DNA from: Mogibacterium sp.
GTDB lineage: Bacteria > Bacillota > Clostridia > Peptostreptococcales > Anaerovoracaceae
NCBI GenBank assembly: GCA_017512365.1
Contig: JAFWGQ010000004.1
Span: 81,691-145,690 of the forward strand
Length of the DNA: 64,000 nt
Direction: 5' to 3'
Positions 29,936 through 44,169 of the stretch are shown here, one piece after another. Each line of letters begins with the position of its first letter. The stretch's first letter is position 1. Under the pieces are notes generated by a model. The model searched no databases, had not been told where the DNA came from, and saw nothing but the letters and a program-made list of their open reading frames with translations. The translations under genes were made by a program, and so were the position numbers.

Positions 29936-29950
29936 GCCAGCCCTTTTTTA
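29923..29950 (+). terminator. Terminator overlapping the LRR gene stop
   Basis: GGGCcGGC-AGTAA-GCCaGCCC then six T residues. The stem includes the last codons and the stop of the LRR gene. Confidence 0.65.
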
Positions 29951-32614
29951 TTGCTCTTCGTCATCCACACTTACAGCGCCGGTCTTGAAAATGATCTTTG
30001 ACTGACCTGTCGAGCCGGAGACCCTGCCGCCATAGAACACATCCACACGGTCCGCGGCACACAGCATATTGAACTTCTTTACCATTTCCGTGATTCCGCT
30101 TCCTTCAAGCGCTCCGACAAAGGCCTGTATGCCCTCCCTGTTGAATCTGCTCATGCCGTTCGCAAGCTGCCATGCTCCGACCTCGGCCTGAGCCGCACCG
30201 TCTGCAAGCTGATTCACTCCGGTCAGAAGATCTTTCGTTCCGTCGCTGAGCTTAGCAGTGCCGTCTGCAAGCTGCCCTGCACCGCCCTTCAGCTGGCCGG
30301 CGCCATCTCTGACAGCGCTCGCGCCTTTTGATAATTCGACCGTCCCGGCCTTCAGCTGATCAAGTCCTTCGCTGAGCCTGGCGGCTCCGTCATCGATCGC
30401 AGCAGCGCCGTCATCAAGTTCTGAAGCAGCCTGTGCCATTGTGGCTGTTCCTTCCTTGAACTGGTCTGTTCCATCCTTAAGCTCTCCTGCATAATAATCG
30501 ACAGTCAGAGCACCTTCCCTGATCGCTTTTCCGCCTTCATCAAGAGCTTCCGTGCCTTCCTTGAGCTCGCCGACTCCTGTATCCAGCTTTGCTGCGCCAG
30601 CATCGATCTCTGCAACACCGTCATCTATCGCGTGTGCGAGGACAGCCATCACTCCCGTCGATATGAGCATCGCAGTCGCGGTCGCGTCTGCTGCCTCAGC
30701 CTGTTTCTTAACTGTCCCGGCTGTGCTGTTTGCCCTGTCTGCCTTATCCGCTATATCACTGACAGAACTCTTTCCTGAAGATTCCTTCTTTCCTGCGGCT
30801 GACAGCGACCCTTTAAGAGCATCCAGGTTGCTGCTGACCTCATCAGCGCTTGACGAGGCTGAATCGACACTGTCCACATAAGACTCCACTCCGGCAAGAT
30901 ACGAATCAAGTCCGTTCAGTTCGGAGATCGCGCTGTCGATCAGAGCCCTTTTGCCTTCATCTTTGACGAGTCCTCTTGCAGCCTGGAGCTGACCGCGGTA
31001 TGAAGAGATAGCGCTTCTGTATCCGGATGCGCCACCGCTTATTCCCGTTCCCTCCGCCGAGAGGCCGTTGAGTATGCTGTTCATCTCATCAGCTGCGTCT
31101 ACAGCAGAATCTGCACCTCTTTCTGCAGTTCCGATCTTCGATCTGACGCTCTGGTCTCCGGCAAGATCATGTATATCGTCAGCTACTTCCTGAGTCTGAC
31201 CTTTGAGCTTTTTTGCGTTCTTTTCGAGCAGGAGAGTCTCTGCCTTCATCACAGCCGATTCCGCAAGCACCGCATCTGCAGCAACATGGAGCAGACCCGA
31301 CGCAGAAGACAGTTTTCCTGTACCGTCCCTGAGCGCTATGGTGCCATCCCTGAGGGTACCGACGCCGTCATCCAGAACAGACAGCTGTTTGCTGAATTCT
31401 ATCGTTCCTTCTCCCAGCACAGAGGTCCCGTCCTTCAGACTTGTTGCTCCTTCATTCAGTAATCCTGCGTTCTCATCAAGAGTCTCTGCGCCTTTCCTGA
31501 ATTCGCCAGTCCCGGAATGCAGCTGACTGCTGCCTTCTGAAAGCTCCTTCGCTCCGTCCGCGAGCTGTCCGGCGCCTTCATCAAGAGTGTCGGTGCCTTT
31601 TTTGAGTTCATCAGTCCCGTCATACAGCTGCGCACTGCCTTTATACAGATCCGATGCTCCTTTTTTGAGAGTTTTCAATGCTCCCGCAAGCGTGCCGGAT
31701 CCGTCCCTTAGCTGCTCAGTTCCGTCTGCGAGCTGTGTAACGCCGCTCGCGAGACTGCTGCTTCCGCTCACCAGCTGGTTTGCGGCTGACGAAAGCTGCG
31801 ACAGACCTGCTTCAAGCTGATCCATCATTCCGGCGGCGTCATCGACCATTCCTTCTATGCCGCTCTCAGCCAGCATCCCCGTTGTTGCGATGCTGTATGT
31901 ACCATCTATCCTGAACGAATCTGTATCGGCTTTGATCACGATATTTTCAGGTATCGCGAGAGAATCGTCTTTTATGCCGAGATTCTCTTTCATTCCTGGC
32001 AGTGCATAACCCATGCATACTGTAGAATCACCGTTGTGCAGGACCTTTCCGTTCTCCACGCTGATATTGCTGAAATGCTCGTTGCTGAGCATAAGGCCGC
32101 TCGCCACCATGTACGGATGTGTCATGACGCCGTCGCCGACGCTGACCGTGCTGCTTATATCATAGTCAAAGTGTATCTCGACCTTGCCAGACTTTCCGGC
32201 TATCTTATCTGCAGAGACCTTTTTGCCGTTGAGATAATACGATATGCTCATCTCGATCGGCAGGGCTCTGTCCGATGTCCCCTGATACCTTATGCTGTTG
32301 CCTTTGGCATCCCATACGAGATTCGCTCCGTCTCTTTTGAATTTCTCCGATCCGGATATGTTTTCTATATCGCTCAGATACGATACGTCTTCGATCTTTT
32401 CTTCGCCGTAGCTGTGCAGCAGCTCGTCTACCAGCACCTTTTCGGTAGATCCATCTGCAGACTTGATGACATATACAGTCTCTTCCTTGTCTATTTTTTC
32501 GAGGGTCGTCTCAGCGTATGAAGGGACACACAAAGACATTCCCGCCGTGGTGAATACCAGCACGAACGAGAGTGCGAGAGCGATCGTTCTTTTTGTAATG
32601 TCTGTTCCTGTCAT
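29948..32614 (-). CDS. Secreted glycine-rich heptad-repeat protein (YhgE/Pip-like)
   Basis: 888 residues. A signal peptide ends near PSYA-ETT. From about residue 250 to 850 the chain is mostly 7-residue units of the form LxxGxxx (LADGTEQLRDGSGTLAG and so on) broken by a 200-residue helical part; this is the pattern of YhgE/Pip and related RND-associated proteins, predicted to form long coiled coils. The usual C-terminal membrane segments of YhgE are absent, although one hydrophobic stretch (AMLISTGVMAVLAHAI) lies in the middle. It follows the MMPL gene by 87 bases with its own TATAAT box, and probably assists that exporter at the envelope. Function inferred from pattern and position only. Confidence 0.8.
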   Translation of the reverse strand: MTGTDITKRTIALALSFVLVFTTAGMSLCVPSYAETTLEKIDKEETVYVIKSADGSTEKVLVDELLHSYGEEKIEDVSYLSDIENISGSEKFKRDGANLVWDAKGNSIRYQGTSDRALPIEMSISYYLNGKKVSADKIAGKSGKVEIHFDYDISSTVSVGDGVMTHPYMVASGLMLSNEHFSNISVENGKVLHNGDSTVCMGYALPGMKENLGIKDDSLAIPENIVIKADTDSFRIDGTYSIATTGMLAESGIEGMVDDAAGMMDQLEAGLSQLSSAANQLVSGSSSLASGVTQLADGTEQLRDGSGTLAGALKTLKKGASDLYKGSAQLYDGTDELKKGTDTLDEGAGQLADGAKELSEGSSQLHSGTGEFRKGAETLDENAGLLNEGATSLKDGTSVLGEGTIEFSKQLSVLDDGVGTLRDGTIALRDGTGKLSSASGLLHVAADAVLAESAVMKAETLLLEKNAKKLKGQTQEVADDIHDLAGDQSVRSKIGTAERGADSAVDAADEMNSILNGLSAEGTGISGGASGYRSAISSYRGQLQAARGLVKDEGKRALIDSAISELNGLDSYLAGVESYVDSVDSASSSADEVSSNLDALKGSLSAAGKKESSGKSSVSDIADKADRANSTAGTVKKQAEAADATATAMLISTGVMAVLAHAIDDGVAEIDAGAAKLDTGVGELKEGTEALDEGGKAIREGALTVDYYAGELKDGTDQFKEGTATMAQAASELDDGAAAIDDGAARLSEGLDQLKAGTVELSKGASAVRDGAGQLKGGAGQLADGTAKLSDGTKDLLTGVNQLADGAAQAEVGAWQLANGMSRFNREGIQAFVGALEGSGITEMVKKFNMLCAADRVDVFYGGRVSGSTGQSKIIFKTGAVSVDDEEQ

Positions 32615-32701: not shown

Positions 32702-34780
32702 TTAAATAGCGTTCTTTTTTTCGCTTTTTTCAGATGGTCTGAGGCTGAACGAGCCCATGATGAACCTGTCGGACAGCATCAGGAATCCCGGGAGCACGAA
32801 CAGCACCATAAAGAGCGAACAGATCGTTCCCCTTCCGAGCAGCAGTCCCACCTGAGCTATGATCCTCTGTGTCGAGAACAGCGACAGGAGAAACCCCATC
32901 ACGGCTACCGCAGTCGCAGATGTCATTATGGATACAGCCGTATCCGATATCGTCTGAACGATGCACTCCTTCGGTTCCATTCCGGATGTCTTGCGGTTCT
33001 CCCTGTATCTCTGTGTGAACAGGATCGCATAATCGACAGTGGCTCCAAGCTGGACCGAGCTTACTATCAGATACGCTATATAGAACAGCGGGGACCCCGT
33101 GATCAGGGAGATGCTCATGTTCACCCAGATCGCCGTCTCTATGGTCAGTACTAGTATCACCGGGAGCAGAAGGTTCTTCATGGTCAGCAGCAGCACGATG
33201 AACACCGAAAGTATGGCAACGGTATTTACCCTGAGCATGTCGGAAGTGACCACATTCTTCAGGTCATATACGTTGACGCCCTGGCCGGCCATGTAATACC
33301 CGTCCGGATAGTACTTGTCCGCAGTGTCATATACCTTCTTTACAAAGTCAAAGGTCTCTTTGCTTTCCACCGGAAGGTCGACAGATATCAGTATCCTGTC
33401 GTAATTATCGGATCTGAGCTGTGTTGTCAGGCTTTCCGGAAGCATTTCGAACGGAATGGATTCTCCTATTACTCCGACCGGTGAAGTCACCGACAACACC
33501 TCAGGAAAGTCCTTGAGTTCTCTGATCAGAGCATGCTCCTCGGATACCTTTCCCGTCGGCACCATCATCACATAGGAGTCATTATAGCCGAATATCTCTG
33601 TAATGCTTTTGGAATCCCTGCCGACCCGCGTATCAGTTCCGTATATCTGCGATGCACCGTAGAGATAGCTGTTTCTTGTGCTGCCGATGAAAGAAGGTAT
33701 CACGATCAGTACGAACACTATCATCAGCGGGACGGTAACTCTTGTGACAAAGCTTCCGAATCTGCGGAAAGACGGCATGAAGTTCCTGTGTTCTGTCCTC
33801 ACCAGCCATTTATATGTTTCGAGTATGAGACCAGGCATGAACACGAGCGAAGTGATCAGACTGATCGCAACGCCCTTCGACAGCGCGAGTCCGAGATCCG
33901 CGCCGAGAAGGAACCTCATCGTCGCAAGTGCAATGAAGCCTATGACCGTTGTAAGACCGCTCGACAGTATCGACGAGGTGGAAAGCACCAGCGCATCCTT
34001 CATGGCTTCTTCAGGCTCGGCGTCCTGACTGCATTCTCTGAACCGGTGTATGAGGAACACTGAATAGTCAAGCGAGACAGCCATCTGCAGAATGATGCCG
34101 GCCGAATTTGTAACAAACGATATCTTGCCGAACACCAGGTTCGTTCCGGCGTTGATCACTACCGCTATACCCAGGCCGATCATGACTATGGCAGGCTCGA
34201 TCCATGACGTGGTCGTAATGGCAAGGATAAAGATCAGGAAGAGGATGGATATCACAGTTATGAGAGCCACTTCTTTTTCCGTATTGAGCGTAGCCACCAC
34301 AGTCAGAACTGCAGTACCGGAAAACATATTGTCCTCGCCTATCAGATCATATATCGCAGGGACGGTCCTGAGCTGCTTTGCTTCATCTATCGTGACGATG
34401 AACATAGCGTTTCCGTCCTTGTAATATGTATTTCTTATACTTTCCGGGAACATATCCAGAGGCATGTCAAGCGGGATCATGCTGTCGAGCCAGTTCACTG
34501 CAAGCACGCCGTCTGTTTCTTCAAGTTTCCTCTTATACTCCAGCGCTTCTTTTCTGTCCACGTCCCTCACGACGACAAAGGCATTCGGCACATTTCCTCC
34601 GAACTCCTCTGCCATCACTTCAAGAGAGGTCGTCGACGGCGAATCCTGCGGCAGATAATGGAGTATATCATAGTCAACATACACCCTTGTCGCGAGAAAT
34701 GCGCAGATGACGGCAGCGGCAATAAATGCCAGCATCACCGCTTTTCTGTATTTGATCACTTCGCTGTAGAATCGTTCCAT
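32702..34780 (-). CDS. MMPL/RND-superfamily lipid exporter
   Basis: 692 residues in two similar halves, each with one N-terminal helix, an outside domain and a block of about five helices (about 170-330 and 520-680). Both halves keep the Asp-Tyr proton-relay pair known from mycobacterial MmpL3: SLDYSVFLIHRFRE (Asp 238, Tyr 239) and TVDYAILFTQRYRE (Asp 583, Tyr 584). MmpL relatives move lipids such as mycolate esters and lipopeptides out of the inner leaflet. Here it is translated directly after an ACP, a condensation enzyme and acyl-activating enzymes, so it most likely exports the product of this cluster. Confidence 0.92.
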   Translation of the reverse strand: MERFYSEVIKYRKAVMLAFIAAAVICAFLATRVYVDYDILHYLPQDSPSTTSLEVMAEEFGGNVPNAFVVVRDVDRKEALEYKRKLEETDGVLAVNWLDSMIPLDMPLDMFPESIRNTYYKDGNAMFIVTIDEAKQLRTVPAIYDLIGEDNMFSGTAVLTVVATLNTEKEVALITVISILFLIFILAITTTSWIEPAIVMIGLGIAVVINAGTNLVFGKISFVTNSAGIILQMAVSLDYSVFLIHRFRECSQDAEPEEAMKDALVLSTSSILSSGLTTVIGFIALATMRFLLGADLGLALSKGVAISLITSLVFMPGLILETYKWLVRTEHRNFMPSFRRFGSFVTRVTVPLMIVFVLIVIPSFIGSTRNSYLYGASQIYGTDTRVGRDSKSITEIFGYNDSYVMMVPTGKVSEEHALIRELKDFPEVLSVTSPVGVIGESIPFEMLPESLTTQLRSDNYDRILISVDLPVESKETFDFVKKVYDTADKYYPDGYYMAGQGVNVYDLKNVVTSDMLRVNTVAILSVFIVLLLTMKNLLLPVILVLTIETAIWVNMSISLITGSPLFYIAYLIVSSVQLGATVDYAILFTQRYRENRKTSGMEPKECIVQTISDTAVSIMTSATAVAVMGFLLSLFSTQRIIAQVGLLLGRGTICSLFMVLFVLPGFLMLSDRFIMGSFSLRPSEKSEKKNAI

Positions 34781-34803
34781 TCCGTTCCCTGTTCAGCACT
34801 GCG

Positions 34804-35022
34804 CTAACGGCGTGCGCTGATATATTCAACTATATCGCTCACCGTGACAAACTTCATCAGATCTTCGTCCGGGACTTCGATGTCAAAAGCTTCCTCGAAA
34901 TCCCCGACCATGGATACCACATCAAGAGATGTCAGTTCAAGATCATCGACGAGCAATGATTCCGGCCTGATCTCCTCAGCCGGCGAATATTTTCTGATTA
35001 TCTCTTCTACCTGTTCAAACAT
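34804..35022 (-). CDS. Acyl carrier protein of the GH3/condensation cluster
   Basis: 72 residues, full ACP length. The phosphopantetheine attachment serine is Ser 32 in DLELTSLDVVSM; the usual DSLD is TSLD, a variant seen in specialised carriers. The acidic helix II and the end IVEYISARR are typical. It is not part of a fatty-acid-synthesis operon; it starts two bases after the condensation gene and ends 23 before the MMPL gene, so it probably carries the acyl or aminoacyl intermediate of this pathway. Confidence 0.92.
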   Translation of the reverse strand: MFEQVEEIIRKYSPAEEIRPESLLVDDLELTSLDVVSMVGDFEEAFDIEVPDEDLMKFVTVSDIVEYISARR

Positions 35023-35024
35023 CG

Positions 35025-36257
35025 TTACTCCCCCATCGCTCTGATTATGATATCTTCAAAACTGCAGCTGTCGTTCCTGATCCCTTCGGCCAGGATGTCC
35101 GGTATCTGTCTGATCATCTCAGCAGCCGCTTTATCAGGATATTTCACATTGTGTTCGAGCTGCAGCGTCAGTCTCTCGCTTCCCGTATCCGTGATGGACA
35201 GGGTCATTACGTTTCCGACTTCGGCGCAAGGATACCACATCGCCCTTGCTGACGGATCCGAAGATATCTTTGCAGTCTGATAGCTGAGCCACAGATCGTA
35301 CGGAGCCTCTCCGAACGGGTACACGCCTGCCGCCGACTTGTGGTATCTGTATCCGCCGACGAGTTTCTCTCCCATCCTGCCGATGTTCTCCGCAAAGGAT
35401 GCATCTTTATCGCATTCAAGCAAAAGCGGGATAGTAGTGGCAAACAGACCGGCAGTATTCTTCTCTCTTATCCCGGCGCGGTTCATCACCACTGATCCGA
35501 CAAAGAAATCGTCCCTGCCAAGCTTTCTGCTCATCCAGGCGGCGACGGCTGTCACAAACAGGCTGTATACCGAAACGTTATGTAACGCTGCATAGGCCTT
35601 TATCTCATCGCTCAGCCCCTCTGACATTTCAGCAGTCGCCCAGTGTTTTGCCGGGCGCAGCGGTCTCCCGGGAGAAAGATATGTCTTTTCAGGCAGACGT
35701 TTTTTCTGCTCCTCAAAGAATTCCCTTCCTCTGGCAAATCTTTTGCTTTCCCTGAATCTCTTCTCGCTTTCCGTGAATTCTTCATACCTGAAGGCTTCCG
35801 GATGTCCGCCGTTGACGATGCTCAGGAACTGATCCGCCAGGAGCATGCAGGTCCAGCCATCGGATATTATGTGATGTATCCTTACAAGCGCTCCGTAGGC
35901 ATCCGGCATCTGGACGATCTGCATCTCGACCAGCTCTTGATCCTCTCCCATGCGGAACGGCTTCTGGGCCCACTTCCCGCCCTTTTTGTCCAGTTCCCTG
36001 AGATCCCTGAATTTTACCACCTTGAATTCCCGCGGTTCAAATCCAGCGATAAACTGAGCAGGCTGCCCGTTTTCGTCAGTCACCACGCGGGTCCTCAGGA
36101 CATCGTTGATGCGCAGCACTTCATTGGCAGCGTGCTGAAGCTTTTCGATATCGCACGTTCCCTTTACGATCAGGCTCCCTCCGAGCACACACGCCCTTCC
36201 AAAGCCCGCCTCCTGAGCTTTATATAAATAGTATTGCGGTCCTGTCAGTCCTGTCAT
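35025..36257 (-). CDS. Stand-alone NRPS-type condensation-domain enzyme
   Basis: 410 residues, a single condensation domain without adenylation or carrier parts. The catalytic HHxxxDG motif is intact: HHIISDGW at residues 128-135. The end ILAEGIRNDSCSFEDIIIRAMGE is normal. Such free C-domains join an ACP-bound acyl group to an amine or hydroxyl acceptor, as in mycobacterial Pap acyltransferases and lipopeptide systems. The open frame extends 22 codons further, but ATG 36257, with a GGGGG site upstream, starts the domain. It follows GH3 gene 2 by 25 bases and precedes the ACP by two. Confidence 0.88.
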   Translation of the reverse strand: MTGLTGPQYYLYKAQEAGFGRACVLGGSLIVKGTCDIEKLQHAANEVLRINDVLRTRVVTDENGQPAQFIAGFEPREFKVVKFRDLRELDKKGGKWAQKPFRMGEDQELVEMQIVQMPDAYGALVRIHHIISDGWTCMLLADQFLSIVNGGHPEAFRYEEFTESEKRFRESKRFARGREFFEEQKKRLPEKTYLSPGRPLRPAKHWATAEMSEGLSDEIKAYAALHNVSVYSLFVTAVAAWMSRKLGRDDFFVGSVVMNRAGIREKNTAGLFATTIPLLLECDKDASFAENIGRMGEKLVGGYRYHKSAAGVYPFGEAPYDLWLSYQTAKISSDPSARAMWYPCAEVGNVMTLSITDTGSERLTLQLEHNVKYPDKAAAEMIRQIPDILAEGIRNDSCSFEDIIIRAMGE

Positions 36258-36282
36258 TCTCTGTATACCCCCATTCCCCCTT

Positions 36283-38019
36283 TTATTGATCTGATGCGAT
36301 GATATGCGAGCTGAAATACTCATGGACGTCCTGTGTATCGATGACTCGCAGGGCCTTCAGCTGGTTCGGAGATGTTCCGCCTGCTATCTGCATATCTCTG
36401 TATTTTCTGAAGGTCCCCTGTCCGACCCTGTAGATCACAGCCTTATCGACCACTCCGTTTTCTCTGAAATAGGCGTAGTCCCATCCGTATTTACGCAGGG
36501 CGGCGTCGAACACCTCTGAATAAACGCCGCAGTCTTCAGCCAGACCGGTGTCATCCGCTGCACTCATCTCCATGAAAAGCTCTATCCTGGGCTTGTTGTG
36601 GCCGGCGTCAGCATAGATGCAGTGATCGGCGATATGTATGCCGATATGTTTTTCAAGGTCGTTCACAGCCGCTGCAAGCTGTGCTCCGGTAAGGTGCACC
36701 GAACACATATTGGTGATTTTGTCTGCGCGATATGCAAATTCCAGATAAGGTATCTGTCCCTCGAATCCCGTCACCCTTACAACGTCGCGTATCTGGTAAC
36801 GGTACAGACCCGCCTTGCTTGTCAGGATGATCTCGTAAAGCTTGCCTTCCTCAAGTTCATGCATGAACAGAGGCCTGTCCGACTCTTCCTCTACCGGAAT
36901 GAATTCGAAGAAGCCAGCGTCAGGGAACAGAAGGACGCTTTCGTCCTCGAGTCCCATTACATTTCCGAAAAAGCATTCTGAAGAAGCATACTGCAGATTA
37001 CAGAAGGAAACACCGTCATCACACATCGAGCGCATAGTATCGGAAAAAGGCTTGAAATCCTCGACCCCGATCGCAGCCACGACAGACAGATCCTTCCATA
37101 TCCGGCTGAGCAGGTTGCCCCCTTCAGGATCAGCAAAGATCTCTCTCAGTTCAGCGGCCCGCTCAGGGTCAGGACTGATATCCCTTTCGATTATGCTGCG
37201 TACGCGGTCTGAGATATCCACTGAAGGATCTACAGTCCCCGTTTCTATGTCATGTATGAGCATATCCTGCTTTTCAATAATGAATGCAACGATGTCGGTG
37301 AGGCCGGTCATATAAACGCTGCCGAGGCATGTCAGATACCGGTCCTTAAGAGCGTACATAGCCCTGACATATCTGTTATCCCTGATCTCGCTGCTTCCTA
37401 TGATCGCCCCCGGCTGATTGACCAGCGCCGGGATAAACGGTTTTATCCCGTTCGCCGAGAACCTTGATATCATGCCGGACTTCATACCGCCTCCGACATT
37501 TTCCTCACCCATTTCCGTGGTGATGAAACTCTTGCCATATCTCCTGTTCAGGCCTCTCCGCCTCATAGCTTCGTACATATCGTCTGCAGTCATGATGAGC
37601 GCCTTGAAATACGGCATGTATGAACGGAGGACCTGCGGCATCAGCTTTTTTTCGCTTATCGTACCTGTAGTCGTGGCAAAGAACAGAACCTTCTCTCCGG
37701 TGATCAGTCCCTGCTCGCCGTTATCGATCATCCGTCTGATATACGGCTTGTAATCCTCATACGTCGAAAGCGGCACCGCCTTCTGGTATTCAAGCGGCGT
37801 TTTTATATCCGAAAATCCGTACTTTCTGCCAAGTTCTGTATTTCGGCTCCTGCGGAGTATCCCTTTGAGAGTCCGTTCGCTTATGCGCTGCCCCCTCGGT
37901 CCTGCTGCGATATAATATTTCCTGCACAGCTTTCCGAGGATATGTCCCGACCAGAGAACAGCCGCGTTGAATGCAGCTTCCGCAGGTTTGTATGTTGTTT
38001 TTCTCAGCCTTTTTTTCAT
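36283..38019 (-). CDS. GH3-family acyl-adenylating enzyme (copy 2)
   Basis: 578 residues of the GH3 family, first known from plants as enzymes that adenylate hormones such as indole acetate or jasmonate and join them to amino acids; bacterial members are hardly studied. ATP/AMP motifs are present: ATTTGTISEKK (motif I, about 131-141), YASSECFFG (motif II) and YRYQIRDVVRVTGF (motif III). A basic start before the domain is normal. It overlaps the AMP-ligase gene by four bases (ATGA). Its sequence differs greatly from copy 1, so it is not a recent duplicate. Confidence 0.9.
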   Translation of the reverse strand: MKKRLRKTTYKPAEAAFNAAVLWSGHILGKLCRKYYIAAGPRGQRISERTLKGILRRSRNTELGRKYGFSDIKTPLEYQKAVPLSTYEDYKPYIRRMIDNGEQGLITGEKVLFFATTTGTISEKKLMPQVLRSYMPYFKALIMTADDMYEAMRRRGLNRRYGKSFITTEMGEENVGGGMKSGMISRFSANGIKPFIPALVNQPGAIIGSSEIRDNRYVRAMYALKDRYLTCLGSVYMTGLTDIVAFIIEKQDMLIHDIETGTVDPSVDISDRVRSIIERDISPDPERAAELREIFADPEGGNLLSRIWKDLSVVAAIGVEDFKPFSDTMRSMCDDGVSFCNLQYASSECFFGNVMGLEDESVLLFPDAGFFEFIPVEEESDRPLFMHELEEGKLYEIILTSKAGLYRYQIRDVVRVTGFEGQIPYLEFAYRADKITNMCSVHLTGAQLAAAVNDLEKHIGIHIADHCIYADAGHNKPRIELFMEMSAADDTGLAEDCGVYSEVFDAALRKYGWDYAYFRENGVVDKAVIYRVGQGTFRKYRDMQIAGGTSPNQLKALRVIDTQDVHEYFSSHIIASDQ

Positions 38020-39680
38020 CGCTTGCTTTCACTTTCCTGTTTATTCAGCAGATACCTCTTGATCTTCATCGTAGTGGTCTTGTCGAACGGGATATCTCTG
38101 ACTTTGATCCTTGCAATGTTCCTGCTCTTCGGAACACTGCTGTTGAACTTCCTTATATCGCCGTCTATCCTGTCACGAGCATCAGGGAACCTTTTCTCAT
38201 CCATGTAGAATTCTGCCGTGATCTTTTTATCTTCCTCGTATACAGCCACATCTTCGACATATTCGATCCTCGAGAGTTTCTGCTCGAGCTCCTCCGGAGA
38301 AATATTTTCTCCATTCGCGAGGATTATCAGATTCTTTTTGCGGCCGGTGATATACAGAAACCCGTCTTCATCCAGCCTGCCGTAGTCGCCTGTCCTGAAC
38401 CACTCACCGTCGAACGCTTCAGCAGTAGCCTCCGGATCCTTGTAATAACCCAGCATCACGTTCGAGCCCGAAACGAGTATCTCGCCGATGCCTTTCTCAT
38501 CCGGCTCATCGATCCTCACACGGTTGCACGGCAGCGGCTTTCCGACACTTCCGTACCTGTGGTCATGGTTGCGGTTTACCGCCACAACAGGCGAACACTC
38601 GGTGATACCGTAGCCGCACAGCACCTCTATGCCCAGATCGCGCAGTCCTTTTTCGACCTCTTCGTCAAGATGAGCGCCTCCGCAGATTATGAGCTCAAGC
38701 TCTCCTCCGAAATTGTCATGCACGCTTCTGAAGATGCTCCTTCGCATGTCTATCCCGATCTTCATGAGAGCTCTGCTCAGGGCAAGGCCCCTTCTGAGCC
38801 TGTCTTCCTGCCCGCTGCTTCTGGCAGTGTTCCATATGCCTTTGTACAGCATCTCTGCCATCATCGGAACGGCAGCCACGTTCTGAGGATGATTGGTCTG
38901 AAAGTCCTTTACGATATGCCTGAGATTGCCGCTTATGTGAAGGTCCTTTATGTACAGGAATGCCGCCAGCATGGCGGACGCCCACGAGAAGGTGTGATGG
39001 AGAGGCAGCAGAAGCTGTGCGTGGTCTGCCTGTGCGCACATACAGGTAGCCACCACATCGCTGGTGATATTGCCGTGCGACAGCATGACTCCCTTCATTT
39101 TGCCCGATGTGCCCGATGTATAGACAATGCTTGCCGGAGTGTCCCTGTCTATTCTTTCCCCGGCCTCGCTGAAAGCTCTGTTCCCGTCATCTATGAGTTC
39201 TCTTCCCTCGTCCGCATATTCGTATACTTTCGAAAGCGGATAGTATGATATGTCGGAGTACCTGCCGCCGAGGCTCTTCAGATGGTCGATGACCGGTACG
39301 CTCCCGTCGGAATAAAAAACGGCCGAACATTCACTGTGCTCCGCAAGCTCAGCGATATCCTGAAGAGGGAGTGCTCTGTCAAAAGGTACCGCCACATTTC
39401 CGCTGCACGTAACAGCAAGAAAGCTGAGGACCCATTCAGTGGAGTTCTCACCTATGATAGCTAAATGGGCGGCTTCATGCCCCTGTGACAGAAGGAATGT
39501 CCCCAGCTGCTCGGTCAGGCTGCTGCATTCACCGAAAGTTACAGGTATATCATTATGACGGCCTCTGTAAAACACAGTAACATCGCGGCCCTTTTCTCTG
39601 CCGTTGTCCGTCAGTTCTCTGATCGTCCATAATTCAGGAATATCGTAATAAGGATATGGAGCATTCCTTACGCGTTTCAT
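38016..39680 (-). CDS. AMP-dependent acyl-CoA synthetase / acyl-ACP ligase
   Basis: 554 residues of the ANL superfamily. Motifs: IVYTSGTSGKMKGVMLSHGN (P-loop, about 188-207), GYGITECSPVV, WFRTGDYGRLDEDGFLYITGR and the C-terminal catalytic lysine in TTTMKIKRY. It resembles long-chain acyl-CoA synthetases and the fatty-acyl-AMP ligases that load ACPs. With an ACP three genes later and no CoA-using partner in the operon, loading of the ACP is likely. Spacing: 41 bases after GH3 copy 1; ATGA overlap with copy 2. Confidence 0.9.
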   Translation of the reverse strand: MKRVRNAPYPYYDIPELWTIRELTDNGREKGRDVTVFYRGRHNDIPVTFGECSSLTEQLGTFLLSQGHEAAHLAIIGENSTEWVLSFLAVTCSGNVAVPFDRALPLQDIAELAEHSECSAVFYSDGSVPVIDHLKSLGGRYSDISYYPLSKVYEYADEGRELIDDGNRAFSEAGERIDRDTPASIVYTSGTSGKMKGVMLSHGNITSDVVATCMCAQADHAQLLLPLHHTFSWASAMLAAFLYIKDLHISGNLRHIVKDFQTNHPQNVAAVPMMAEMLYKGIWNTARSSGQEDRLRRGLALSRALMKIGIDMRRSIFRSVHDNFGGELELIICGGAHLDEEVEKGLRDLGIEVLCGYGITECSPVVAVNRNHDHRYGSVGKPLPCNRVRIDEPDEKGIGEILVSGSNVMLGYYKDPEATAEAFDGEWFRTGDYGRLDEDGFLYITGRKKNLIILANGENISPEELEQKLSRIEYVEDVAVYEEDKKITAEFYMDEKRFPDARDRIDGDIRKFNSSVPKSRNIARIKVRDIPFDKTTTMKIKRYLLNKQESESKR

Positions 39681-39721
39681 TCTGCTAAATATTCATCCTC
39701 TTCTGTTTATTTATACTGCTG

Positions 39722-41416
39722 TTATTCTTCAATGATCCTGGCCTGGAAAAACTGTTTTTTTTCAGCTGTATCCAGTATCCTTACAGGTTTTACCGTGGAC
39801 TCAGGCGTCCCGTTTTTTACCTTCATGTCAGCCCATGCCTTCTGTGTGCCGCACTCAAGATTCCTGATCTGTATCTTTCCGACAGCATCCATATTGTAAA
39901 AGTAGTCATATCTAGGATTGACGGCCTTCAGTATCTCATGCGCATTGTCCGCATACCCGCTGAGGTCCTTGCCCTCTTTGTTCTCGAGCAGCAGCTCGTA
40001 ATAATACGGATGTTCCTCGAGCCTGCTGACTACGGCCCAGTCTGTCACTGTGCACCCGCTTGCCTTGCCTATCTCCTTTACAACAGCGGCCATATGCTCC
40101 TCAGTCGTCTTTTCACCGCAGATATTCAGCAGCTGTCCCTTCCTGTATGAAAACTGTATGTACGGACAGTCATTCAAATGCCCGACGACTTTTATCACAT
40201 CGCCGCATCTGTATCTGTACAGCCCCGACTGGTTGGTAATCACGATCTCATATTCCCTTCCTTCTTCGAGTTCATCGATCTCAAGCATCCTGTCTTCGGA
40301 TCCGCCGTCTTCGTTCTGGGGGATGAACTCATAATAACAGCTGTCGACAAGCATCAGCTGAGCCGCAGTATCGAGCTCATCGACAGCAGCAAAGAGGCCC
40401 TCGCTTGCGCCGTATATCGAATAATCGAAAGGGACTCCGTCCGCATACCTGCGCACCTTCTTTGAGAACGGAGTGAATGTTGATGTCCCTATACCGCAGA
40501 TGACCGACATGTTCGGCCACAGGCGTTGTATCAGAGTGCTGTCAAAGCCCTTTTCGAATTCCGTTCTCAGCTCAGCCGCCCTCTCAGGGTTTGGCTTAAG
40601 AACGCTCTTCAGCCTATCCATCGCTTCCGGAGTGGCCTTGGCGAGTTCACTGATACTGCCCTCTTCTATATCCTTCACTATGACCGGCCAGTTTTTTTCA
40701 AGAAAGTCGAATATACTGGATATCTCTCTGAAAAACACACTGAACATATAAATAATGTCTCTGTCTTCCAGAGCGAATCTTGAGATTATGTATTTGGTTT
40801 CGATCTCCTGGTCAGTCAAACGATTTTTGAGCGGATCGCTAAGTATATACGGATAAATGAAGCCAAGCTGTCTGGCAGCTACATCGGCTATATTGCTGCA
40901 TATCGTTCCGTCCGGAAGGATATCGTTAAATGCCGGGCACGTAAACATGCCTCTCGCAGCTTTTAGCCCTCTACCGCGGTATTTCCGGCTGTAACGGTCC
41001 GCCAGTGCGAGCATCCTCGTTACCGTATACCTGGTATAGATATCCACCTCAGGCTGTGTCAGAGGAACGAATTTCCTTTTTCCTACGCTGCCTGAACTCT
41101 GTGCATATCCCACAAGAGGAAGTGAGGTCAGAAGGTTCTCTTCGCCTCCGTCCACCATCCTGACTATATACTCTTCGTAGTCGGAAAATTCCGAAACGGG
41201 TACCATACGTCTGAAGTCTTCGATGGTCTTTATCTCGTCAAAGTGGTATCTGCGTCCATATTCACTGTTTTTATTGACCTCAAGTATCCTGAAGAGCAGC
41301 TTCCTATTCTTCTCTCCCGCATCAACGGTGTTCCTGTGCATCATTTTCAGGTCATGATACCCTTTTTTTATCATCCCCTTTATTATGATCCTGGTAAGTA
41401 TATCTCTTTTTTCCAT
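39722..41416 (-). CDS. GH3-family acyl-adenylating enzyme (copy 1)
   Basis: 564 residues. The GH3 motifs are YAQSSGSVGKRKFVP (motif I, about 109-123), YGASEGLFA (motif II) and YRYRCGDVIKVVG (motif III). The C-terminal subdomain, which picks the amino-acid acceptor in plant GH3 enzymes, is complete. It begins 32 bases after the secreted hydrolase gene stops, with AAGGG before the ATG, so it belongs to the same transcript. Two different GH3 enzymes in one operon suggest two activation or ligation steps, or two acceptors. Confidence 0.9.
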   Translation of the reverse strand: MEKRDILTRIIIKGMIKKGYHDLKMMHRNTVDAGEKNRKLLFRILEVNKNSEYGRRYHFDEIKTIEDFRRMVPVSEFSDYEEYIVRMVDGGEENLLTSLPLVGYAQSSGSVGKRKFVPLTQPEVDIYTRYTVTRMLALADRYSRKYRGRGLKAARGMFTCPAFNDILPDGTICSNIADVAARQLGFIYPYILSDPLKNRLTDQEIETKYIISRFALEDRDIIYMFSVFFREISSIFDFLEKNWPVIVKDIEEGSISELAKATPEAMDRLKSVLKPNPERAAELRTEFEKGFDSTLIQRLWPNMSVICGIGTSTFTPFSKKVRRYADGVPFDYSIYGASEGLFAAVDELDTAAQLMLVDSCYYEFIPQNEDGGSEDRMLEIDELEEGREYEIVITNQSGLYRYRCGDVIKVVGHLNDCPYIQFSYRKGQLLNICGEKTTEEHMAAVVKEIGKASGCTVTDWAVVSRLEEHPYYYELLLENKEGKDLSGYADNAHEILKAVNPRYDYFYNMDAVGKIQIRNLECGTQKAWADMKVKNGTPESTVKPVRILDTAEKKQFFQARIIEE

Positions 41417-41448
41417 TCTCTGTCCCTTCTGTTAATTATCTTCGTTTA

Positions 41449-44169
41449 TCATTTGACTGTGACCTTCATTTTTTTGGACCATGACGATACATATGCCGTC
41501 GATCCGCTGCTCCTCACGTTTCGTACTCTTATATAATATGTGCTGCCTTTTTTCAGTCCCTTGAGTCTGTACGACCTCCTGGTCTTCTTAAGGGTTACTG
41601 TCTTAGCATTTTTGAAATTCCTGTATTTACTGTACTGCAGCTGTATACCGCTGATTTTTTTGAGCTTCTTTGCCGGCAGCTTTTTCCAGCTGACAGTAAA
41701 GTTCCTCCTGCCGCTCTTCGCTTTCACGCTATCCGCGGCCGGGACGGTCTTGCTGTATACCGTCGTTGTTTTTGCAGCTGCAGAGCCGGCCGTGCTGTTC
41801 TTTGTCGCAGGTGCTGTTTTGCCAGCCGTGTCATTCGATCCGGCGGAGCTTCCCTTTTCTTTTCTGCTCAGCGTATACACAGCGCTTGTCAGGTCGTATT
41901 TGCCGTCTCTGTATTCGGCTGCAGGCATATCGATCGTAAGAGTCTCTCCCCTCTTCGCATCAAGTCCTTTCCAGCTGCCGCTGTCATCGCCTGTGACAGC
42001 ACGTTTGACGCTGCCGTCTGTAATGGAGTAATCATCCACTTCGAGGCTGACTGCCGCGTCTTTGCTGAACTGTATGTTCACCTTGCACGGCCGGTCGATC
42101 TGCAGTCTGAGCCAGTTGCCGCTGTCAGATGTAGTCATGCCTGTCCATTCGTCGTTTCTAGATGTGATCCCGCTTTCCGTGAACGAAGCGATCTGTCTTC
42201 CGCCGCTGTCGGTAACGGTCCCGCTGACGGATACCCCTTCCGGCTGACTGATCAGCACTCTTCTGTAGCCCGTGTTCTGCGCTTCTGTGCCCTTGCTGAA
42301 ATCGGCATAATACGGAGAAGCCTCTCTGTACCAGCTGTAAACGGACATGTACATGTGCATGGATGCATATCTTGAGAAATTCCCCAAAAACGTCGCCATC
42401 TGGCAGAACTGCTCGTTGTCGAACTTCAGAGGCTCGATCTTACTGCTCTGCAGACTGTTTCCGAATATCAGACTTGCGAGGAACCACGCCACAGGTTCTC
42501 TGCTTTCTTCGGAAGTCAGCTTCTTTATGGTCTCTTCGTCCTTGCCCGCTGCTGTAAGAGCTTCTTTCATGCAGTCCGCATACAATACCCCCGTCAGTTT
42601 TTTGAGGTACTTCAAAAGAATACTTCTCTCGGAACCGCTGAGCGATATGTTGAGCCTGTATGCTTTTTCAGAATCATCGCCGCCCTTTGTGAAATACGTA
42701 TCCCTGATATATTCATATGCGGTAAAGCGTTTGTATTCATTCCTGATGCTGCCGTCCTCATCCTCCATCTCCGAAGCAAGGCGGTTGAAGCTCTCCTCGA
42801 TGAGTTTGTTGAGCTCCGCGCTGTTCCCGCTTATGCTCTTGTCAACAAGGAACGTTGTATACATGCAAAGCACCAGAGACATCGATTTCTTCGTGCCCGT
42901 CATCGCATTTATCATGATCTCGATGTTGCGGTAATTGATGCCGTCTTCAAAGAAGAATCCCACGAGATCCATCATCGGCTGCTGATAAACGTTATAAAAG
43001 CCCTTTCTGCTGTCGCCGTCTCCTTCCTGTGCGCATACCCTTTTGATGGTGTCCTCTAATGCACTCATGTAAACGGCCTGATCCCTCGGAATATATGAAT
43101 CCGGATCAGGGACCATGACAAGTTCACCGCTTTTGAGGGCTTCCGTGTCAGGCTTCATCGGCATGAAATCATCCGGATCTTCCTCTCTTACATATGCCTC
43201 ATATATCCAGGCATAGTCTTTTTTCATGAGATCGAGTACTCTGGCCTTGACCTCTTCATAGTCTTCCGACTCACGGTCTCTGATACCGTAGTCCGTTCCG
43301 TACCTGTCGAATTCATCAGACGTCGGCAAAATCGAAAGTATATCCGCGCCGTCAAATACATTGTGTATGTTGGCGTACATATCGTTCTTCGGATCCGAAT
43401 ACACGGACGCCGCTCTCATAGGAGAGAAATTATAGCAATACAGATCAGCCGGTTTGAAAGTCGGATTGCATACTACATACGCCGGATATCTGAGCAGTTC
43501 GGCAGCAAAGAGATTGCATACGCCTCCGCCTCCGCTGTATCCGGTCGTCCATACCTTGAGATCGCCCTTTATACCGTGATCCTGTATATACTTCCTTACA
43601 AAGGCGACTACCTTATCCTTGCACGCATCATAGCCGGCATGATCGCCCTTGTCACTGCCGCTGTTACTGAGTATGAGACTTCTTTCAAACTCCTTGCCGA
43701 AGGTGCCGCTCCTCGGGATCACGGCAAGCAGGGTATAGGTCTTTCCTCTGTCCGTGATGCTTTTGCGGGCGCATGCGACCGCCGATGATTCAAGAGATGC
43801 TTCCCCTTTGTAATCATCGTTGACCTCAAAATCCGTAAAACCGTTGTCAGTCAGCAATTCTCTGAGATTGCGGCTCTGTGTCTCAAGGGTCGATCGTCTT
43901 GTCTGGTAGGTGGAGTTGCATACGAAAAATGACAGTGCAGCAAGGCTGCTGTTGTACTGCATGGAATCGCCTCTGAAAAAATCGTCGCTGTAATAGACGA
44001 CATCCGGCGTGTTGTACACGTGGTACGCCATTTCCTTCACAGCTGCAGTATCGCCGCTTTCTATCGCCGCATAAGACTGCGCCGGAAATGACAGCGCCGT
44101 CGGGACAACAAGAGCCGCGCTCAGTACTGCTGCAGTTACACGTCTTAATACCCTGGATCCTGATCTCAT
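41449..44169 (-). CDS. Secreted lipase-like hydrolase with fibronectin-III tail
   Basis: 906 residues. Signal peptide with cut near SYAA. Around residues 185-200 the nucleophile elbow WTTGYSGGGGVCNLFA (GxSxG) indicates an alpha/beta hydrolase, as in lipase class 3-like proteins. A long helical middle has no known domain; a jelly-roll-like part (about 620-770) and a fibronectin-III domain (about 815-906, WKKLPAKKLKKISGIQLQYS) end the protein. No sortase or lipid anchor. ATG 44169 is chosen because AGGAG stands seven bases before it. It is directly upstream of the GH3 operon, so it may cut or modify the exported product. Confidence 0.8.
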   Translation of the reverse strand: MRSGSRVLRRVTAAVLSAALVVPTALSFPAQSYAAIESGDTAAVKEMAYHVYNTPDVVYYSDDFFRGDSMQYNSSLAALSFFVCNSTYQTRRSTLETQSRNLRELLTDNGFTDFEVNDDYKGEASLESSAVACARKSITDRGKTYTLLAVIPRSGTFGKEFERSLILSNSGSDKGDHAGYDACKDKVVAFVRKYIQDHGIKGDLKVWTTGYSGGGGVCNLFAAELLRYPAYVVCNPTFKPADLYCYNFSPMRAASVYSDPKNDMYANIHNVFDGADILSILPTSDEFDRYGTDYGIRDRESEDYEEVKARVLDLMKKDYAWIYEAYVREEDPDDFMPMKPDTEALKSGELVMVPDPDSYIPRDQAVYMSALEDTIKRVCAQEGDGDSRKGFYNVYQQPMMDLVGFFFEDGINYRNIEIMINAMTGTKKSMSLVLCMYTTFLVDKSISGNSAELNKLIEESFNRLASEMEDEDGSIRNEYKRFTAYEYIRDTYFTKGGDDSEKAYRLNISLSGSERSILLKYLKKLTGVLYADCMKEALTAAGKDEETIKKLTSEESREPVAWFLASLIFGNSLQSSKIEPLKFDNEQFCQMATFLGNFSRYASMHMYMSVYSWYREASPYYADFSKGTEAQNTGYRRVLISQPEGVSVSGTVTDSGGRQIASFTESGITSRNDEWTGMTTSDSGNWLRLQIDRPCKVNIQFSKDAAVSLEVDDYSITDGSVKRAVTGDDSGSWKGLDAKRGETLTIDMPAAEYRDGKYDLTSAVYTLSRKEKGSSAGSNDTAGKTAPATKNSTAGSAAAKTTTVYSKTVPAADSVKAKSGRRNFTVSWKKLPAKKLKKISGIQLQYSKYRNFKNAKTVTLKKTRRSYRLKGLKKGSTYYIRVRNVRSSGSTAYVSSWSKKMKVTVK

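Follow-up and report, generated by a model that had tools for sequence, protein, structure and literature searches.

A Mogibacterium gene set combining GH3 proteins, a free-standing condensation enzyme and an MMPL exporter, a candidate pathway for an exported fatty-acyl amide

Two described bacterial systems come closest to the locus presented here. In the first, OaaA, OaaACP and OaaC have been reconstituted in vitro, and a free-standing condensation (C) enzyme couples the fatty acid carried by the ACP to a free amine (PMC13142362). Gut Clostridia are known to use such a ligase-ACP-C trio to make fatty acid amides (FAA) with action on host receptors. In the second, OlsH, a bacterial GH3 protein, uses free fatty acid to make N-acyl ornithine and, as stated in PMC12493201, requires neither ACP nor CoA. 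In Singulisphaera it belongs to a three-gene operon, together with OlsI, an alpha/beta-hydrolase acyltransferase, and a methyltransferase (PMC12493201). A preliminary description of our locus called the bacterial use of GH3 proteins almost unstudied; because OlsH makes N-acyl ornithine (PMC12493201), this statement is out of date. It also held that no described system has this gene set. In the open-licence literature, we indeed found no paper with a title or abstract describing the combination; however, the two nearest systems, Oaa (PMC13142362) and OlsH (PMC12493201), were not named there. Each part of the gene set is of a known kind, and the new element is a GH3 protein tied to a carrier-dependent C enzyme.

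The window analysed here is a stretch of 64,000 nucleotides on a contig of 145,690 bases in a 2.46-Mb assembly. The organism is a relative of rumen bacteria. Both coordinates and gaps confirm the earlier reading of seven genes on the minus strand with spacings from -4 to 41 bases, see Table 1. From the lipase-like gene to the MMPL gene the gaps are 32, 41, -4, 25, 2 and 23 bases, the negative value being a 4-base overlap between the gene of the AMP-forming acyl ligase (AAL) and that of the second GH3 protein (GH3b). These values use 36257 as the start of C; the longest ORF of C (35025-36323) opens inside GH3b, while the orthologues point to 36257. All three GH3 domains (N, middle and C) of both GH3 proteins and the AMP-binding, Condensation, PP-binding and MMPL domains match Pfam above the curated cut-offs, and the two GH3 proteins, AMP ligase, C enzyme, ACP and exporter named earlier are all found. 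The title of the preliminary description omits the first gene, whose lipase-like product is predicted to be secreted and has an Fn3 domain.

Table 1. Position and main properties of the genes of the locus, numbered from the first nucleotide of the window.
Gene product	Position	Strand	Length	Properties
Secreted lipase-like protein	41449..44169	-	906 aa	signal peptide by eye; GYSGGGG nucleophile-elbow-like motif; C-terminal Fn3
GH3a, acyl-acid amido synthetase family	39722..41416	-	564 aa	PF03321 216.6, GH3_M 86, GH3_C 35.9 bits
AAL, AMP-forming acyl ligase	38016..39680	-	554 aa	PF00501 198.9 bits
GH3b, second GH3	36283..38019	-	578 aa	PF03321 180.2, GH3_M 80.3, GH3_C 55.6 bits
C, free-standing NRPS-type condensation enzyme	35025..36257 (likely start)	-	410 aa	PF00668 145.5 bits (cut-off 30.6)
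ACP	34804..35022	-	72 aa	PF00550 42.2 bits; attachment Ser in LTSLD by eye
MMPL/RND exporter	32702..34780	-	692 aa	PF03176 164.2 bits (cut-off 20.5); Asp-Tyr in both halves
XXXLXXG heptad-repeat secreted protein, possible exporter partner	29948..32614	-		TIGR03057 134.8 bits; 87 bases downstream of exporter

The spacing suggests that the seven genes could be read as one transcript. A consensus promoter scan returned 13 sites, compared with 16.1 in shuffled sequences, and provides no promoter evidence. The XXXLXXG-repeat protein may also be part of the gene set. Twelve other loci of the genus contain a whole or partial exporter, and in seven of these a homologue of this protein follows it (L216, L217, L218, L220, L224, L225 and L226). 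It does not follow the exporter in L215, L219, L221, L222 and L223; a contig end is near in four of these (L215, L219, L222 and L223).

In all 12 pairs of orthologues compared, the third codon positions vary more than the first and second. As dS is undefined in seven of these pairs and saturated in the other five, the codon-position pattern alone was used. It points to purifying selection, and with several genes recurring together in the genus the gene set appears to be more than chance. The listed contamination of the assembly (6.94%) was ruled out as the source of the locus, since the neighbours in the window are syntenic with genome G635 of the same genus, i.e., this is no stray contig. The order SSF symporter, T9-like gene, lipase-like gene, GH3a, exporter and XXXLXXG gene is repeated in G635; the gene labelled R476 is found at another position there than in the window.

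Both GH3 proteins are best read as predicted ATP-dependent amide ligases of the GH3 family. Almost the full length of their joint profile aligns with plant GH3 structures (best E=1.9e-76). GH3a contains the stretches SSGSVGKRK, YGASEG and YRYRCGD and GH3b the stretches TTGTISEKK, YASSEC and YRYQIRD, which we take to be the three nucleotide motifs; GH3b has Thr in the first of them where its relatives have Ser. GH3a is 65% identical to the GH3 protein of L101. Orthologues of GH3b exist in two of the 47 genus genomes only, G655 and G640 (584 and 573 bits; the next match has 285). In a tree of 63 out of 103 rows, from which the rows of 36 named loci were dropped, GH3a and GH3b belong to separate clades and GH3b forms a clade of its own with its two orthologues, as obtained with a quick method that gave long-branch warnings, also for GH3b. 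That GH3a and GH3b represent a standard GH3 pair is not supported, as the second GH3 proteins of the pairs in other bacteria fall in other clades of this quick tree with its long-branch warnings.

The protein of the first gene is weakly recognised by profiles, with 31.5 bits for fn3 and only E=0.059 for Lipase_3. However, L240:6678-9317, a paralogue, scores 29.3 with Lipase_3 and so exceeds the cut-off of 22, and the protein is therefore named lipase-like. A fixed partner of 460-530 aa downstream of GH3a in its relatives was also considered and dropped, as three ORFs of this kind were assigned to TrmO, GDSL lipase and no family.

The locus resembles the OlsH/OlsI operon as described, in that a bacterial GH3 amide synthetase is linked to an alpha/beta-hydrolase-type gene. 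It could then encode a membrane aminolipid route, in which an N-acyl amino acid formed by a GH3 protein receives a second acyl chain from the hydrolase-like protein and the resulting lipid is moved within the envelope by the MMPL protein. OlsH and OlsI provide a precedent that a GH3 and an alpha/beta-hydrolase can make such a lipid (PMC12493201), and a lipase-like gene is near GH3 in five of the ten genus GH3 loci (window, L215, L220/L101, L238 and L240). However, no lipase-like gene was found near GH3 in the other five (L239, L241, L242, L243 and L244), and in the GH3 loci of named genomes (the best 80 of 280) it is present in one (L101) and absent from 79. Its signal peptide, seen by eye, would place the lipase-like protein outside the cell, where an acyl donor is unlikely. 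Further, GH3a and GH3b score 86.5 and 72.5 bits with the OlsH model NF052613, far under the equivalog cut-off of 620, and this route would give no role to AAL, ACP and C. We find the aminolipid route improbable.

The three genes AAL, ACP and C are instead what relates the locus to Oaa. In both, a free-standing AMP-forming ligase, an ACP and a C enzyme are encoded in one small Bacillota cluster, and the Oaa cluster as described has, like this one, no acceptor carrier. Such free-standing genes are found together in the window, L249 and L256, as well as in L215, where AAL is split. The presence of the same three free-standing activities makes it conceivable that the locus is a fatty-acid-amide cluster of the Oaa type proper, to which GH3 and MMPL genes were added. 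An alpha/beta-hydrolase gene moreover precedes C in one sampled FAA cluster (L207).

The relationship between the C enzymes was studied by profiles and trees. When nine long rows are left out, a quick tree groups C with the FAA C domains (support 97), and when one FAA row is left out as well, a careful tree does so too (99/98); both groupings are flagged as a possible long-branch artefact. In the 53-row tree, the window clade and the FAA clade are each supported by 100/100 but are separate, with no resolved link between them. With E values up to 1 allowed, the profile of the window clade finds 47 other distinct chain sequences and misses the OaaC structure 12KH, while the FAA-type C of L208, from the class, matches 12KH at 1.8e-107. 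The idea that C is OaaC itself is therefore not supported.

The HHIISDGW motif of C, reported earlier, is present. The motif reads HHIISDG in the window and HHIISDA in the four orthologues, and D-A is also common among the compared NRPS C rows. FAA C domains (n=127) are described with a (D/H)HxxxDS-type motif, whose last place is S in 42%, A in 36% and G in 17% (PMC13142362).

The clusters also differ in other respects. The gene order is AAL-C-ACP here and C-ACP-A in the Oaa cluster as described, to which the window adds two GH3 genes, a secreted lipase-like protein and an MMPL exporter. Neither a GH3 nor an MMPL homologue was found in five FAA-type loci (L207-L211, stretches of 13-20 kb), which were chosen from short-ORF matches among ten regions. 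In a tree, AAL forms its own clade beside the FAA ligases and generic ligases. Altogether, an Oaa-type cluster with added genes is the least probable of the explanations considered here.

AAL has orthologues with 66-68% identity in G635, G662 and G655 (seven genomes searched), and it is also found beside C in L256. Its best solved relatives are acyl-CoA ligases, and AAL may feed CoA instead of ACP. Mycobacterial lipid factories consist of a FAAL, a carrier, a Pap-type transferase and an MmpL exporter. The preliminary description likened the gene set to a miniature version of these. The likeness holds for the general division of labour, i.e., activation, carrier, acyl transfer and MMPL export, but it does not extend to the enzymes. 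C scores higher with NRPS C domains than with Pap, and since it reaches only 25.5 bits with the PapA5 model, where the cut-off is 396, a Pap-type enzyme is not supported. Among the 23 solved-structure (PDB) matches of AAL at E up to 1e-20, no FAAL-named molecule was found. We also know of no GH3 proteins in the mycobacterial factories.

The exporter has, as reported earlier, an Asp-Tyr pair in both halves, at residues 238-239 and 583-584. It is 75% identical to the exporter of the G655 operon and is below the cut-offs of NCBIfam subfamilies (149 compared with 874.7, and 147.7 compared with 351.9).

In the family, 10 of 349 genomes pass E=1e-45 in a search with C, and those with a C of the window clade are the same five that were found among the 47 genomes of the genus, i.e., the window's own, G655, G640, G635 and G653. 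A gap in score, about 730 against 201 bits, divides these from the other five, whose matches are in frames of about 1470 aa. The search with C beyond the family covered 391 genomes sampled from the class and 269 from the phylum. Seven genomes of the phylum sample pass the search; the six others score at most 171 bits, with one match in a 716-aa frame (G932).

Within the genus, the composition of the locus varies. The order is lipase-GH3a-AAL-GH3b-C-ACP-MMPL in the window, while G655 (L215) has the lipase gene, two ACP-like remnants, a split AAL, GH3b, C, MMPL and ACP. The G655 operon looks damaged, with AAL split by a frameshift into two ORFs, a stop near the N-terminus of GH3b and the two remnants, unless assembly errors explain these defects. 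In G640 (L238) lipase-GH3b-C is followed by a gene for a RarA/MgsA-type ATPase, as judged by eye; the best AAL match in this genome, which is 77% complete, has only 35% identity. G635 (L249) and G653 (L256) contain AAL-C-ACP alone, directly adjacent and without GH3b. AAL-ACP is found in G662 (L250), a genome where C was not matched in the genus search.

Two sets of neighbours recur in these genomes. In four of the five C-bearing genomes (window, L215, L249 and L256), AAL, C and ACP are clustered. GH3b separates AAL from C in the window, and both GH3b and MMPL are interposed in the L215 trio. GH3b is located immediately upstream of C in three of the five (window, L215 and L238), each time with a lipase-like gene nearby. 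MMPL is present in two of the five C clusters, and GH3a in that of the window only. Conservation limited to single genes, named in the preliminary description as a refutation, is not what is seen, since AAL-C-ACP and lipase-GH3b-C recur. A scattered GH3 pair had been counted there against the proposal, and to a degree the pair is scattered, as GH3a and GH3b are together in the window only, among the loci read.

There is no fixed seven-gene system, as the modules occur in other combinations in the genus. A separate block in G635, lipase-GH3a-MMPL-XXXLXXG with neighbours at most 35 bases apart, lacks the AAL-GH3b-C-ACP cassette, and L240 of G640 consists of lipase-GH3a-lipase. In the window, this cassette stands between GH3a and MMPL, and the window therefore looks like a union of two units.

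The strongest rival explanation is that no joint pathway exists. Two or three independent acyl-conjugation modules (lipase and GH3a, lipase and GH3b, AAL-C-ACP) would then lie beside one broad lipid exporter and each make its own product. Modules that occur alone or re-paired in the genus (L220/L101, L238, L240, L249, L250 and L256) fit this explanation, as do the presence of GH3a beside the cassette in the window only, the separate clades of GH3a and GH3b, and the close MMPL copies in other contexts (L216-L219 and L221). However, GH3b is directly upstream of C in all three genomes that have GH3b and is flanked by AAL and C in two of these, an arrangement that is unlikely if the functions were unrelated. 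The overlap of AAL and GH3b in the window also speaks against it. We give independent modules a limited, though real, chance of being the correct explanation.

Outside the genus, the full set was not found in the regions covered. The scan of the whole collection of named genomes used GH3a as query and covers the best 80 of 280 confirmed stretches, many on short contigs; an operon without GH3a could escape such a scan, and records close to the window's genome may be omitted. None of these 80 GH3 loci contains the seven-gene set, and as the set is modular in the genus, a conserved seven-gene operon is rejected. Of the best 80 of 280 stretches, two (L101, and L104 from Ruminococcaceae) have an MMPL gene, one (L101) a lipase-like gene, none an ACP and one (L150, Spirochaetaceae) a C-type match at up to 8 kb from GH3. 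A profile search identified NRPS C domains also in L154 and L159, which are Monoglobus pairs near NRPS genes. No C, ACP or MMPL of the window type was found beside GH3 in ten regions of eight family genomes (L011-L020), nor in 20 class regions (L081-L100). Three of the class regions, L087, L088 and L089, have NRPS-type A/C matches. In one of them (L088, from the Monoglobus-type genome G162), a fusion protein of AMP-binding, carrier and Condensation domains is encoded beside two GH3 genes, with an ABC exporter nearby, which indicates that a like set of activities came together elsewhere.

A second GH3 is present in 20 of the 80 loci (best 80 of 280), and pairs are associated with ABC exporters. 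Such exporters are found at 18 of 20 paired and 9 of 60 unpaired loci (Fisher p=1.9e-9; best 80 of 280), a comparison in which flank lengths differ and related species are counted separately. The counts are 19/20 and 8/60 once L179 (a 1083-aa ORF) is not regarded as a pair and L134 is. Among loci flanked by 5 kb or more on each side, the exporters are found at 12 of 14 paired and 5 of 26 unpaired loci (p=1e-4). Like the window, these pairs in Acetobacterium, Lachnospiraceae, Eggerthellaceae and Bifidobacterium have two different GH3 proteins beside an exporter. They differ in that the exporter is of the ABC type and not MMPL, in that no C or ACP match is found within 8 kb, and in the clades of their second GH3.

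We suggest, with a probability of about 0.5, that the locus encodes a composite pathway whose product is an exported fatty-acyl amide, either an N-acyl amine or a lipoamino acid. What is seen directly is the gene content, the families, the motifs, the codon pattern and the recurrence of AAL-C-ACP and lipase-GH3b-C; we infer every reaction, the order of the reactions, the substrates and the direction of transport. Of the pathway in the preliminary description, the activation, carrier, condensation, GH3 amide ligases and export persist as the best reading, though the set is not one conserved seven-gene system.

In the proposed pathway, (i) the secreted lipase-like protein may set fatty acids free outside the cell, (ii) AAL would convert a free fatty acid to acyl-AMP and load it on ACP, and (iii) C would transfer the acyl group from ACP to an amine or amino acid that diffuses freely. 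A free acceptor is proposed because the operon has neither a second carrier nor a recognised amino-acid-loading module; alternatively, the acceptor may be carried by a component from outside the operon. In this respect, the AAL-ACP-C trio resembles the division of labour described for Oaa with its free amine acceptors. GH3b would (iv) act as an ATP-dependent amide ligase with one of two tasks, the attachment of a further amino acid at the carboxyl of the C product or the synthesis of a related N-acyl amino acid from free fatty acid; GH3a could have the same role with another substrate. Finally, (v) the MMPL exporter, perhaps together with the XXXLXXG protein, would move the product outward.

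A more specific form of this pathway, which we regard as doubtful, is that the carrier-dependent C and the carrier-free GH3b act in series. A fatty acyl group, an amine or amino acid and a second amino acid would then be joined to an exported lipo-dipeptide or lipoamide. If true, this would be the first pathway, among those found, in which a GH3 protein extends the product of an NRPS-like enzyme.

Three genomes, all from the same genus, show the tie between GH3 and C, and the genes of one of them appear damaged. It combines two kinds of amide-making enzymes that are described only apart in the papers found. The variants in the genus, with or without GH3b, GH3a and MMPL, lend themselves to a comparison of the step that each gene adds. 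The gene set also gives a concrete place to ask for the function of the many GH3 genes in gut and rumen Bacillota.

Two different GH3 genes recur together with ABC exporters in Acetobacterium, Lachnospiraceae, Eggerthellaceae and Bifidobacterium among the best 80 of the 280 GH3 stretches (L101-L180), as exemplified by L138, L132 and L160, and locus L138 of Acetobacterium carries a RimK-type ATP-grasp ligase gene in addition to the pair. A Monoglobus-type genome (L088:1318-11153) has an AMP-binding, carrier and Condensation fusion protein adjoining two GH3s, and an ABC exporter is found close by. Within the taxonomic class, five loci (L207-L211) hold clusters of C, ACP and A of the fatty-acid-amide type, and the one upstream gene tested among them is an alpha/beta hydrolase (L207:8728-9687).

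In the operon copy of the same-genus genome G655, two degenerate ACP-like copies are located between the lipase-like gene and the acyl ligase (L215:8223-8906), while the intact ACP is separate from these and lies 3' of the exporter.

MMPL genes are also seen elsewhere. In a Ruminococcaceae record (L104:9995-16771), an MMPL gene and an ORF of 872 aa come after a GH3a-type gene; a Pfam search gave no family for this ORF. The window's own genome, G000, contains two further MMPL homologue pieces, listed below with the gene following that for the XXXLXXG heptad-repeat protein. The two pieces are perhaps a single gene split by the assembly.

MMPL homologue pieces in G000 and the window gene past the XXXLXXG gene
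Feature	Location	Placement	Identity to the window's exporter
MMPL homologue piece	G000:C30:14-1285	contig end	61%
MMPL homologue piece	G000:C32:87183-88028	contig end	58%
BspA-type leucine-rich-repeat protein with DUF4854	window:28334-29935	opposite strand, immediately beyond the XXXLXXG gene
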